DNA of 64,000 nucleotides from Pontiellaceae bacterium B1224 (GTDB taxonomy: Bacteria; Verrucomicrobiota; Kiritimatiellia; Kiritimatiellales; Pontiellaceae): NCBI GenBank assembly GCA_029432815.1, contig JAROBA010000002.1, positions 62,001 through 126,000 on the forward strand, given 5' to 3'. Below, in pieces: positions 30,676 to 51,478 of the stretch. Position numbers and translations under genes: made by a program. Numbering within the stretch: the first letter of the stretch is position 1; the number at the start of each line of letters is the position of its first letter. The notes below the pieces were generated by a model. It searched no databases and had not been told where the DNA came from. It saw nothing but the letters and a program-made list of their open reading frames with translations.

Positions 30676-32694
30676 ATGGATTTCTTCGCCCGTCAGGATA
30701 GCGCCCGAAAGCAGACCGGCATACTGCTGGTCTCTTTTACGGCAGCTATTCTGCTGACGTCGGCACTGGTTTATTTCGTCATTCTCCTCGGGCTCGAGCT
30801 GCTCGGTTTCGATTTTACGCAACTCAGAAAACCAGATGACAACCTCCAGCTCTGGCATGCGCCCCTCTTCTTCGGAACGTTTCTCGTCACACTCATAGTC
30901 GTTACCTTTGGATCGATCCTCAAGAAATCGGAACTGAGCGGCGGCGGCCCGATGATTGCCACGCAACTGGGTGGACGGCCGGTGCTGCCCGACTCGCAGG
31001 ATTTCTATGAGGTCCGGCTCCGGAACATTGTTGAAGAAATGGCGATCGCCTCGGGCGTTCCGGTGCCGCAGATCTATCTGCTTGAAAACGAGCGGGGCAT
31101 CAATGCCTTCGCCGCCGGTTTCCGCGCCGGTGATGCGGTCGTGGCCGTGACCTATGGAACCATGGTCGGGCTGAGCCGCGATGAACTGCAGGGAGTGATT
31201 GCCCACGAATTCAGCCATATCCTGAACGGCGATATGCGGATGAATCTGGATCTGATCGGCTGGTTGCACGGTCTGACGGCCATCGCGGGAGCCGGGAAAG
31301 GCATGCTCCACAGCCTGGAACATGTGCGCGGTCGCGGCAGCCTGATTATCGTTATTGTCGGCGGCGGCCTTTTCGCCGTCGGCTCCATGGGAAATGCCTT
31401 TGCCGGATTGATTAAGAGCCTGATCTCCAAACAGCGGGAAATTCTCGCCGATGCCTCCGCCGTGCAGTTTACCCGCAATCCCGGCGGGCTGGCCGGTGCT
31501 CTGAAGAAAATCGGCGGACTGGTCCATGGCTCCCGCCTGCATGCAGCACATGTGGATGAAGTCAGCCACATGTGTTTCGGCAACGGCCTGCGTGGCACCA
31601 TGTTTCCCACCCACCCGCCGCTTAAAACCCGTATCCAATGGTTGGAACCCGGCTTCGACGGGCACTATGAAAACGTTACACTCGACTCGATTTACGCCAC
31701 GCTGGCCCAAACCGAAGGAGCGCCGCGTCCGCGCGATGATCGGGTTCAAGCGTTTGCCGACATCTACGGGCAGGGCAGGCGAGACGCCTGCGATACACCC
31801 CGTACCGCAGGCGTCTCGCCTGCTCCCCGCAGAGCAGCCAACCCTCCGAAACCCATCAACGGCCATGCCCTACTGGAATCGATTGGCAAACCGATGCTGC
31901 AGCACGAAGAAACGGCCCGCGCCCTGATCGCCTCCATCCCGGATCGGGTTCGTGAATATGCGGGCAGCCCGTACGGCGCGCGCATGCTGATCTATTTTAT
32001 GCTGCTCGACCGCAATCCTGAAATTCAGGCCAAACAGCTCTCCATCATCAAGCAAATGGCCGAACCCGAAGTTTTCCAAACCTTGGAAGCGGCCGTTCCA
32101 AACATTGGAAACCTGGAACACGGGCTATACCTGCCGATCATTGATCTGACCATTCCGGCGCTGCGCTTCCTTTCGGTCGGGCAATACCGCGCCTTTATGC
32201 AGGTGGTTAAAGCGCTTGTTTTGGCCGATGGACAGACGGATATTTTTGAGTATGCACTGCAGCGGGTGTTGTCGCATCACCTCGAACCGCTCTTTGAAGG
32301 CCGGAACCGCAAGCGCCCGGCCAACTTTTATTCCATCCGGGGCCTGGTTCGCGAAACCTCCATCCTGCTTTCCGTACTCGCCCGTAAATGCCACGACCAC
32401 GGAATCGAAGCGTCGTCTGCTTTTATGGCGGCGGTCGACCTCATCGACGATCCGAAAACAGAATTCGTCCTGCTCGATAAATCAGAATGCAGCTGGGATC
32501 GGCTCGACCTTGCACTGGATAAACTCAACGAAGGATCGGGCCTGGTGAAGAAGCAGATTCTAAGCGCGGCTCTCACCTGTATGATGTTTGATCGCAAAAT
32601 CACGGTCGAAGAGGTGGAACTGTTTCGCGCCATTGCGGTCACCCTCGACTGCCCCGTCCCGCCCTGGGTCACCCCCTTGGAATTGGATAAATAG
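30676..32694 (+). CDS. Membrane M48-family metalloprotease with in-frame palindromic insertion
   Basis: A 672-residue HtpX-like protease. Two N-terminal TM helices, then the M48 domain with zinc motif VIAHEFSHILNGD (HExxH) and third ligand in KQREILADASAVQF, which places it in the M48 quality-control family. The C-terminal half (after ~370) is an extra domain not present in E. coli HtpX. Residues ~367-385 read GRRDACDT...AGVSPAP, encoded by a palindromic insertion at 31773-31827. Further on, FQTLEAAVPNIGN is made by two palindromes (32074 and 32096). It follows lemA by ~100 bp. Confidence 0.9.
   Translation: MDFFARQDSARKQTGILLVSFTAAILLTSALVYFVILLGLELLGFDFTQLRKPDDNLQLWHAPLFFGTFLVTLIVVTFGSILKKSELSGGGPMIATQLGGRPVLPDSQDFYEVRLRNIVEEMAIASGVPVPQIYLLENERGINAFAAGFRAGDAVVAVTYGTMVGLSRDELQGVIAHEFSHILNGDMRMNLDLIGWLHGLTAIAGAGKGMLHSLEHVRGRGSLIIVIVGGGLFAVGSMGNAFAGLIKSLISKQREILADASAVQFTRNPGGLAGALKKIGGLVHGSRLHAAHVDEVSHMCFGNGLRGTMFPTHPPLKTRIQWLEPGFDGHYENVTLDSIYATLAQTEGAPRPRDDRVQAFADIYGQGRRDACDTPRTAGVSPAPRRAANPPKPINGHALLESIGKPMLQHEETARALIASIPDRVREYAGSPYGARMLIYFMLLDRNPEIQAKQLSIIKQMAEPEVFQTLEAAVPNIGNLEHGLYLPIIDLTIPALRFLSVGQYRAFMQVVKALVLADGQTDIFEYALQRVLSHHLEPLFEGRNRKRPANFYSIRGLVRETSILLSVLARKCHDHGIEASSAFMAAVDLIDDPKTEFVLLDKSECSWDRLDLALDKLNEGSGLVKKQILSAALTCMMFDRKITVEEVELFRAIAVTLDCPVPPWVTPLELDK
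31773..31827. repeat. In-frame palindromic insertion (RPE-like) within the M48 gene
   Basis: GCAGGCGAGACGCCTGC (31775-31791) and GCAGGCGTCTCGCCTGC (31807-31823) are reverse complements of each other and each is itself nearly palindromic. The 55-bp element keeps the frame and encodes RRDACDT...AGVSPA in a poorly conserved linker of the protease. Confidence 0.85.
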
Positions 32695-49760: not shown

Positions 49761-49834
49761 AGCCGCAAGGTTTTCATGGAGTTCGCTCTGTATGTCAATT
49801 GAAATTGAGAAAAGGGAACAACCCCGGTATATCT

Positions 49835-51478
49835 ATGCCAATGAACTTCCCTGAACCATCTGAGATCCTTTTTGCCGCCTTTAACGCGCGCTATGCGCAC
49901 ACTTCGTTTGGTGCGCGCTATCTGCTGGCCAATATGGGCGAACTGCAGACCCATTCAAAATTGATGGAGTTCGACCTGCAGGTACAGCCCCGCATTGCCG
50001 TTGAAAAGATTCTGGTTCACAATCCGCAAATTGTAAGTATCGGATGCTACATCTGGAACATTGATCTCGTCACAAAGGTTGCCGCCCTGCTGAAAGGCAT
50101 CCGACCCGAAATTAAGCTGATCCTCGGCGGTCCCGAAATTTCCTACGAAACCGAAGAGCAGGAAATTTTCCAATACGCCGATTACGTCGTCTGCGGCGAA
50201 GGTGAAATTGAAGTCCCGAAGCTTTGTTCCTTACTGCTGGGCAGGCGGGCCGCCTGCGATACAGAAATCGCCGTACCGCAGGCGGCCCGTCTGCTCCACG
50301 CTGATCCGGTGGATGTGCAGCAGATCGAACTGCCGTACGATCTTTACTCGGACGAGGACATCAAACACCGCGCCATCTATGTGGAAGCCTCGCGCGGTTG
50401 CCCGTTCCGATGCGAATACTGCATGTCGTCGCTCGATCCCTGCGTGCGCTATTTCCCGGAAAGCAAACTTTTTCCAGCCTTTGGAAGGCTGCTTGATCGC
50501 GGGGCGCTCAGCTTCAAATTCGTCGACCGCAGTTTCAATATCGATATTTCCTTTGCGCTCAAAGTCCTCGCCTTTTTCAAAGCCCGCTATCAGCCCGGCA
50601 TGATGTTGCACTTTGAAGTCATTCCTTCCCAACTTCCCGACGAACTGATGGAAGCCGTTTCGGATTGCCCGCCCGGCATGTTGCAGTTTGAGGTCGGCAT
50701 TCAGACGTTTAATGAAGAAGTCGCACATCGGATTCAACGCCCGCTGGATATTGCTAAAATCGAAACCAATATGCGCCGACTGCGCGATGAAACCGGCGTT
50801 CACATTCATTCCGACCTGATTGCCGGACTCCCCGGCGAAGATCTCAAAAGTTTCGAAGCCGGATTCAATCGTCTGCTCGCCCTCCGGCCGCAGGAAATTC
50901 AACTCGGCATTTTGAAACGGCTGCGCGGCGCACCGATTGATCGGCATTCCAACGATTGGAACATGATCTACAGCCCGCACGCCCCCTACGAAATCCTCAG
51001 CACCAGCCTGATCTCGTTTGAAGACATGCAGCGCATTCAACGCTTCGCCCGCTATTGGAACCTCGTCGTCAACAACGGCCAGTTCATCGACACCGCCCCG
51101 CTCATCTGGTCAGGGAGCAGGCGGGCCGCCTGCGATACGCAAGCCGTACCGCAGGCCGCTGGCCTGCCCGGAGAATCCGCCTTCGCGGCGTTTATGCGCT
51201 TTTCGGATTGGCTCTATGCAAAAACCGATTCGACCGGGAATCTGCATGTGGTTCGTTTGGCTAAGCTGCTGATGGAATTTCTGACGAAGGAACTCGGGCT
51301 TAATGAAAAGGTCGTGGCCGAAGCGCTTTGGTCCGACTATCAGCGCGGTAATCGGCCGGACGTACCGGGGTTTCTGAAAAAATTTGGATTCAACCACAGC
51401 CGGCAGGATGCCGGCGATACGACTGTAGCGCCTGCTTCCTGCGGGCACTCACGACAGAATAGGCATTTACAGGAATAA
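49835..51478 (+). CDS. B12-binding-type radical SAM protein with three palindromic insertions
   Basis: A ~548-residue protein. N-terminal cobalamin-binding-like domain (IVSIGCYIWNIDLVTKVAAL, LILGGPEISYETEEQEIF), central radical SAM domain with YVEASRGCPFRCEYC, and a C-terminal DUF4080-like helical region (ISFEDMQRIQRFARYWNLVV). Substrate unknown. Two linkers contain RPE-like insertions (RRAACDTEIAVPQAARL near residue 144; RRAACDTQAVPQAAGL near 430), and the C terminus ends in a third, degenerate one (RQDAGDT...APASCG). Start at ATG 49835; TTG 49799 is also open. prmA follows three bases after its stop. Confidence 0.85.
   Translation: MPMNFPEPSEILFAAFNARYAHTSFGARYLLANMGELQTHSKLMEFDLQVQPRIAVEKILVHNPQIVSIGCYIWNIDLVTKVAALLKGIRPEIKLILGGPEISYETEEQEIFQYADYVVCGEGEIEVPKLCSLLLGRRAACDTEIAVPQAARLLHADPVDVQQIELPYDLYSDEDIKHRAIYVEASRGCPFRCEYCMSSLDPCVRYFPESKLFPAFGRLLDRGALSFKFVDRSFNIDISFALKVLAFFKARYQPGMMLHFEVIPSQLPDELMEAVSDCPPGMLQFEVGIQTFNEEVAHRIQRPLDIAKIETNMRRLRDETGVHIHSDLIAGLPGEDLKSFEAGFNRLLALRPQEIQLGILKRLRGAPIDRHSNDWNMIYSPHAPYEILSTSLISFEDMQRIQRFARYWNLVVNNGQFIDTAPLIWSGSRRAACDTQAVPQAAGLPGESAFAAFMRFSDWLYAKTDSTGNLHVVRLAKLLMEFLTKELGLNEKVVAEALWSDYQRGNRPDVPGFLKKFGFNHSRQDAGDTTVAPASCGHSRQNRHLQE
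50239..50297. repeat. In-frame palindromic insertion, copy 1 in the radical SAM gene
   Basis: Left arm GGCAGGCGGGCCGCCTGCGA and right arm CCGCAGGCGGCCCGTCTGCT flank a ten-base centre. In frame it encodes GRRAACDTEIAVPQAARL, just after the B12-binding domain. Confidence 0.85.
51113..51171. repeat. In-frame palindromic insertion, copy 2 in the radical SAM gene
   Basis: Left arm GCAGGCGGGCCGCCTGCGAT and right arm ACCGCAGGCCGCTGGCCTGC, with a shorter centre than copy 1. It encodes SRRAACDTQAVPQAAGL in the same phase as copy 1. Confidence 0.85.
51398..51450. repeat. In-frame palindromic insertion, copy 3 at the radical SAM C terminus
   Basis: CAGCCGGCAGGATGCCGGCG followed by GCGCCTGCTTCCTGCGGGCA. 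The arms differ from copies 1 and 2, but the encoded RQDAGDT...APAS peptide and phase match the family. It forms part of the gene's last 30 codons. Confidence 0.6.

Follow-up and report, generated by a model that had tools for sequence, protein, structure and literature searches.

In the BIME/REPIN systems of E. coli, Pseudomonas and Stenotrophomonas, an inverted pair of hairpins is tied to a Y1 HUH transposase (RAYT), and REPs adjoin or flank the RAYT genes. The GTAG REPs are short tagged hairpins that often form head-to-head dimers and are mostly intergenic (Di Nocera 2013, PMC3733652). Further, REPs lying in frame inside genes have already been published, including those of Opitutus terrae, a bacterium of the PVC superphylum, some of which keep the frame of genes for replication, repair and RNA functions (Di Nocera 2013, PMC3733652). 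REPs also occur in frame within the tnpAREP genes of TnpA-Y1 subclass 2.4 (RAYT group 4), as reported in a study that discarded unexpectedly long RAYT proteins as fusions or annotation errors (Quentin 2018, PMC6006769). With regard to the tag, cleavage by the TnpA-REP of S. maltophilia is lost when the substrate carries GTAC, and the E. coli enzyme accepts GTAG in unaltered form only (PMC8266576). The Rickettsia palindromic elements (RPEs) and their Wolbachia counterparts lie in frame in unrelated conserved proteins, and an RPE-bearing guanylate kinase was reported to be translated and active (PMC2229807). In-frame palindromes have so far been treated as tolerated accidents.

Here we describe a palindrome in an M48 peptidase gene of a Pontiellaceae bacterium. 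Because in-frame intragenic REPs have already been published, the M48 copy belongs to a known kind. Its family resembles the GTAG REPs in hairpin form, head-to-head pairing and mostly intergenic location, and the O. terrae REPs in lying partly in frame within such genes of a PVC bacterium, but differs from the GTAG REPs in its GTAT/GTAC tag and lower copy number. Unlike the BIME/REPIN systems, in which RAYT and REPs form an extragenic REPtron, RAYTs and REPs are here often in frame inside host ORFs. As in TnpA-Y1 subclass 2.4, three RAYT genes of the same genome (L118, L125 and L157) hold in-frame REPs; in contrast to their treatment by Quentin (2018), long ORFs recur here as conserved in-frame domain insertions, and long RAYT fusions are not necessarily errors of annotation. 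The in-frame position within unrelated conserved proteins is shared with the RPEs, which however are 105-146 bp long and unrelated in sequence, with no RAYT identified in that text (PMC2229807). Genus-wide re-occupation of codon sites, a constraint on spacer length and a tabulated phase bias go beyond the findings of Di Nocera (2013). Since many codon sites in this one genus occur in filled, solo and empty form, the long-standing questions of REP spread and of the role of RAYTs for the host become testable by comparison.

Genome sequences and analysis

The genome (G000; Pontiellaceae, Kiritimatiellota) is a 5.38-Mb draft of 204 contigs. The window, that is, the whole stretch of DNA analysed, is 64 kb long (C127:62001-126000). 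G-numbers are species handles and L-numbers are locus handles. Genes were called by codon score, and key genes were checked with Pfam. Pattern searches covered the whole genome, and strict hairpin counts covered 1.66 Mb of its contigs, which were taken as whole stretches and not centred on copies. Relaxed counts of GTA[CTG] hairpins over the 1.66 Mb were dropped and the stricter GTAYCGC core was chosen, because chance hairpins dominate the relaxed counts. Reading phases were tabulated for this genome and for loci from 27 congeneric genomes; the genus sample consists largely of draft genomes. A phylum-wide scan of 388 genomes revealed almost nothing beyond the genus. Any statement below on mobility or on the activity of host proteins is a prediction from sequence.

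The palindrome in the M48 peptidase gene

The gene carrying the palindrome matches Peptidase_M48 of Pfam (E=3e-24), and the best matches of its protein are from Pontiellaceae strains and Pontiella. The features of the locus are as follows.

30676..32694, plus strand: M48 (HtpX-like) membrane peptidase gene, an ORF with PF01435 at aa 114-324; 30 homologues aligned
31775..31796, minus strand: REP arm 1, GTATC-GCAGGCG-TCT-CGCCTGC; sense reading GRRDACDT
31797..31801: spacer separating the two tags, 5 nt, ACCCC
31802..31823, plus strand: REP arm 2, GTACC-GCAGGCG-TCT-CGCCTGC; reading RTAGVSPA

The initial annotation, made from the sequence of the window, had reported a perfect 17-base inverted repeat in this gene. 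We confirmed that the 17-mer GCAGGCGAGACGCCTGC at 31775-31791 has its perfect reverse complement at 31807-31823. The inverted repeat extends to 22 nt at 95%, with arms 5 nt apart, and the element as a whole (31775-31823) is GCAGGCGAGACGCCTGCGATAC-ACCCC-GTACCGCAGGCGTCTCGCCTGC, coding for GRRDACDTPRTAGVSPA (aa 366-383). No other close-spaced inverted repeat in the window comes near the strength of this palindrome and of a copy at 50241. The arms mirror each other as had been described, but the description as a single inverted repeat is incomplete: each arm forms a hairpin by itself, with a 7-bp stem and a 3-nt loop, whose 5' foot bears the tag GTAT or GTAC (consensus 5'-GTAYC-GCAGGCG-nnn-CGCCTGC). 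Because each arm would fold alone with its own tag, the unit consists of two REP-like hairpins placed head to head, and we consider it highly likely that the M48 palindrome is a REP dimer of the BIME/REPIN type.

In an AlphaFold model of the M48 protein, pLDDT was <50 at residues 365-396, a stretch that includes the insert (366-383), and confidence was good elsewhere. The insert thus appears to sit in a predicted disordered linker after the peptidase domain. This linker varies in all relatives aligned. The M48 orthologue of G002 carries a decayed dimer that shares a near-identical spacer and 3' flank, so the insertion may predate the split from G002. No recognisable dimer copy was found in M48 orthologues closer than that of G002, and a search of the nearest orthologues yielded no clean filled/empty pair, the linkers being too divergent even at 77% identity. 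An attempt to define the insertion point or a duplication from these orthologues was given up because the linkers do not align well enough.

Genomic distribution and RAYT genes

The 17-mer with at most one mismatch occurred at 14 places genome-wide, compared with 0 for a reversed-pattern control, and exact inverted pairs numbered 9 genome-wide compared with 0 in the control. Further, 16 GTAYCGC-tagged hairpins were counted in the 1.66 Mb, compared with 0 when the tag was scrambled. The genome contains approximately 32 REP loci, roughly three quarters of which are intergenic; the seven within called genes are those of M48, radical SAM (three loci), DusB, HrpA and MiaA. Spacers of head-to-head dimers range from 0 to 24 nt. 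The family combines the features by which REP/BIME elements are recognised, namely a tagged hairpin, dispersed and mainly extragenic copies, inverted pairs and an association with RAYTs. The tag of M48-type arms, GTAT or GTAC, falls outside the strict definition of the GTAG superfamily; other hairpins in this genome do carry GTAG. The GTAY tag counts against an explanation based on RAYTs, given how the S. maltophilia and E. coli enzymes respond to altered tags (PMC8266576).

A REP lies 20 bp past the stop codon of the RAYT gene at L125. This gene (L125:1623-2486) and those at L118:6076-7104 and L157:1648-2748 are 58-68% identical, and each contains in-frame GTAG/GTAC hairpins of its own. Near its 5' end, the L125 gene is apparently frameshifted; it is missed by the PF01797 profile and was picked up from the ORF list. 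Linking the element to PF01797 genes by distance was tried and abandoned, since a good GTAY REP lay near only 2 of 11 such genes in the neighbourhoods fetched. In addition, the ORF of a TatD-family DNase (L363:619-2076, C119) runs in frame into a C-terminal RAYT domain. This TatD fusion, 49% identical, is the only relative in this genome of the embedded type of RAYT described below, and no RAYT cognate to the GCAGGC family was identified in the genome.

Recurrent occupation of the same codon sites

Three in-frame inserts were found in a radical SAM gene of the window.

49799..51478, plus strand: B12-binding/radical SAM/DUF4080 gene with three in-frame REP inserts; start possibly at 49841
50241..50294, plus strand: radical SAM site A, REP dimer, GRRAACDTEIAVPQAARLL; a whole RAYT is present here in G018, G023 and G026
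51117..51167, plus strand: radical SAM site B, REP dimer, SRRAACDTQAVPQAAGLP; a whole RAYT is present here in G013, G017, G020, G021 and G028
51399..51420, minus strand: radical SAM site D, single REP arm near the C-terminus, SRQDAGDT; stem GCCGGCA

Site A, site B and the C-terminus of this gene are occupied in many congeneric species, and site B is empty in G004, G016, G018, G023, G025 and G026. At one position of DusB, GCAGGC-type dimers are present in five species; in others the stems are GCCCGC, GCCTGC or GCCGGC with the phase unchanged, some have GTAGTTCCGCC-type hairpins, and a few have little or nothing. The palindromes at the DusB and radical SAM sites are swapped across the genus, with position, hairpin and phase kept. 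Gene conversion, re-insertion at a hotspot or turnover in place could each give rise to such re-occupation.

RAYT domains inside host genes

A complete RAYT domain, bracketed by REP dimers, lies at site A or B of the radical SAM ORF in eight congeneric species. When the genus was searched with this 190-aa domain, approximately 45 copies were found in 20 genomes, most of them in stop-free frames of 440-1198 aa. The internally interrupted hosts, as identified with Pfam and NCBIfam, were XseA (ExoVII large subunit), PriA, a CCA-adding/poly(A) polymerase-type enzyme and diphosphomevalonate decarboxylase, and C-terminal RAYT fusions were found with TatD (in G000) and Fic. The loci with an in-frame, palindrome-flanked RAYT domain are listed by host gene.

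xseA: L356, L358, L355, L357, L368
priA: L385-L391, L359
CCA-adding enzyme: L361, L370, L371, L373
diphosphomevalonate decarboxylase: L375

In each of XseA, PriA and the CCA enzyme, several species share a single conserved point of interruption; at the PriA site, the peptides of G000 and G003 look like short inserts and contain no RAYT. The open-access literature searched yielded no in-frame RAYT cassette in a housekeeping gene.

Two loci show repeated units around the embedded RAYT. In the radical SAM gene of G013 (L323/L354), tandem 51-bp REP dimers, which encode repeated 17-aa units (SRQDVGDTVPPASCGQH), flank the RAYT on both sides. In G028 (L274:2552-4144), the spacer peptides of the two REP dimers that flank the RAYT are identical (SGS), which would fit recent copying or conversion between the flanks and a route to solo dimers.

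At the CCA site, dS of the RAYT domain was 0.7-1.5, dN was 0.11-0.20 and dN/dS was 0.14-0.17, values similar to those of the host part, and domain and host have diverged to about the same extent. Elsewhere, synonymous substitutions approach saturation and dN is low. The host parts of the interrupted housekeeping genes are under purifying selection as well. The low dN/dS indicates that the embedded RAYT domain is selected as a protein. The HUH motif is kept in all 30 of 30 aligned RAYT copies as NHVH or a close variant (NHIH, NHAH). The embedded RAYT matched NF047646 with E=6.5e-21 and 74.7 bits (cut-off 80 bits). In an alignment to PDB 4ER8 (TnpA-REP), presumed position 115 is Y in copies with EYYDH and S in those with ESYDH or ESFDH. 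In PriA- and CCA-embedded RAYTs (L371, L372 and related loci), ESFDH takes the place of the EYYDH or ESYDH of other copies, and the catalytic tyrosine may have been lost in the ESFDH copies with HUH retained. An AlphaFold model of the radical SAM-RAYT fusion was set aside as evidence owing to its low confidence (pLDDT 59). A RAYT domain at dN/dS of ~0.15 inside a CCA-adding enzyme, or one within PriA or ExoVII, is unexpected: either the host enzymes work with an HUH domain in mid-protein, or the transposase became part of them.

Origin of the inserts

We are fairly confident in the following account of the M48 insert: a REP dimer was moved by a RAYT, entered the M48 linker and was kept by open-frame selection and inheritance. 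The dimer would be a non-autonomous element, mobilised as single-stranded DNA by a RAYT (TnpA-REP, Y1 HUH) and inserted into the linker behind the peptidase domain. Its persistence would be due to a reading frame that remained open and to a linker that can accommodate a short hydrophilic peptide. Published work on intragenic REPs, on TnpA-REP cleavage and on TnpA-Y1 subclass 2.4 offers a precedent for the mechanism (PMC3733652, PMC8266576, PMC6006769). In the genus, the family comprises solo dimers and dimer-RAYT-dimer cassettes in frame within host genes. A solo dimer at a cassette site would most simply result from loss of the RAYT through recombination between the flanking dimers, or from insertion of a lone dimer. 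We infer the mobilisation, the order of events and this route to solo copies from the comparison of loci.

Whether this extends to a way of life of the whole RAYT lineage in Pontiellaceae is, in our estimation, an evenly balanced question. The lineage would live as REP-bracketed, in-frame domain insertions in the genes for PriA, XseA, the CCA-adding enzyme, the B12-radical SAM protein and diphosphomevalonate decarboxylase. It would borrow host expression, escape loss in that an imprecise deletion would disrupt the host gene, be kept by purifying selection and sometimes be shed to solo dimers, with the M48 insert representing the non-autonomous side.

Exaptation, in which the inserts would be useful in the host protein or mRNA, for example by pausing translation, forming a hairpin in the mRNA or making a protein contact, is in our judgement a minor candidate. 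The DusB and radical SAM sites, which hold different palindromes across the genus with frame and hairpin kept, and the dN/dS of the RAYT embedded at the CCA site are consistent with it, whereas the sites are empty or short in some species (G016 and G025 at radical SAM site B; G009 at DusB), the M48 copies are rare and decaying, and the host genes are functionally unrelated.

Reading phase and spacer length

Across this genome and the 27 congeneric genomes, hairpin-then-tag (F-type) arms were distributed over phases 1/0/2 as 49/3/0, and tag-then-hairpin (R-type) arms over phases 0/1/2 as 52/5/1, the arms in both counts not being independent. Treatment of all 110 in-gene arms as independent events was rejected, and the arms were grouped into about ten sites (M48; radical SAM A, B and D; DusB; HrpA; a TPR protein; an AddB-like nuclease; the Fic-RAYT gene; and a doubtful N-terminal case). 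First arms were in one phase at nine of these ten distinct sites, one site being doubtful; the probability of at least nine of ten in one class is ~0.001 if the three phases are equally likely. The fixed phase across unrelated genes that the initial annotation had noticed is therefore borne out, and the equal use of frames that it had named as counter-evidence is ruled out by the phase table. Its more specific statement, that M48 shares its phase with radical SAM, applies to the first arm, which agrees with both radical SAM dimers (RRAACDT). It does not apply to the second arm, which reads RTAGVSPA in M48 and VPQAARLL in radical SAM, because the spacer is 5 nt in the former and 10 or 7 nt in the latter. 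Shared descent and re-occupation of the same sites, which had not been considered, explain much of the repetition.

The in-gene spacer was 1 mod 3 in 34 of 38 dimers, compared with 12 of 27 intergenic dimers (Fisher p=1.9e-4). With such a spacer, 44 + spacer is divisible by three, a bias that would follow from translation of the inserts and loss of those that break the frame. The M48 dimer, with its 5-nt spacer, is an exception. The GATAC arm comes first in 36 of the 38 in-gene dimers, in which the sites are not independent, and the base preceding the arm is nearly always a purine (A or G), so that the codon there is AGC or GGC. Alternative frames through the element are open too, and hence stop codons do not force the choice of phase. 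Exceptions to the common phase are the second arm of M48, the single arm of MiaA and, apparently on one arm, the PriA-site repeats.

Under the RAYT account given above, the fixed phase would result from purifying selection for an uninterrupted, tolerable frame, together with inheritance and re-occupation of in-frame sites. Open-frame selection and inheritance account for much of the phase pattern. They do not fully account for the exact phase shared by unrelated sites, and selection alone does not obviously give one of three open phases at about nine of ten sites. The initial annotation had offered selection or a mechanism tied to reading frame; the former is supported by the spacer bias and the predicted disordered linker, but nothing shows frame-tied insertion, nor is it needed. 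We regard as unlikely a mechanism of the latter kind, in which a RAYT target motif lying in one codon phase would impose a preferred phase and orientation. It would agree with the concentration of first arms in one phase, the nearly uniform orientation of in-gene dimers and the A or G before the arm, but the choice of target cannot set the length of the spacer, which is constrained within genes. Further, the exceptional arms of M48 and MiaA, and apparently one arm of the PriA-site repeats, lie in another phase, and many of the sites are orthologous, leaving few independent events.

Removal of the insert from the product, by protein splicing, RNA excision or ribosome bypassing, is very improbable. 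Inserts of up to ~280 aa are found without a frame break in the conserved priA, xseA and CCA-adding enzyme genes, as removal would permit, but bypassing or RNA excision would not need a conserved frame and a length divisible by three, and the conservation of both disfavours splicing and bypassing. No intron family matched, and no intein or Hint domain was found in the Pfam/NCBIfam scans. We give virtually no weight to the idea that the palindrome arose by chance in a GC-rich gene or is an artefact of assembly: the assembly is a draft of many contigs, but the 14 real matches against 0 in the control speak against it and recurrence at orthologous sites in independently assembled genomes refutes it.

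Two of the intergenic copies, L109:2500-2587 (C117) and L113:2515-2566 (C124), share at least ~25 bp of additional flank (TCTTTGCAGAGCGATCTGAATCG...), which suggests that these copies may belong to a longer repeat unit.
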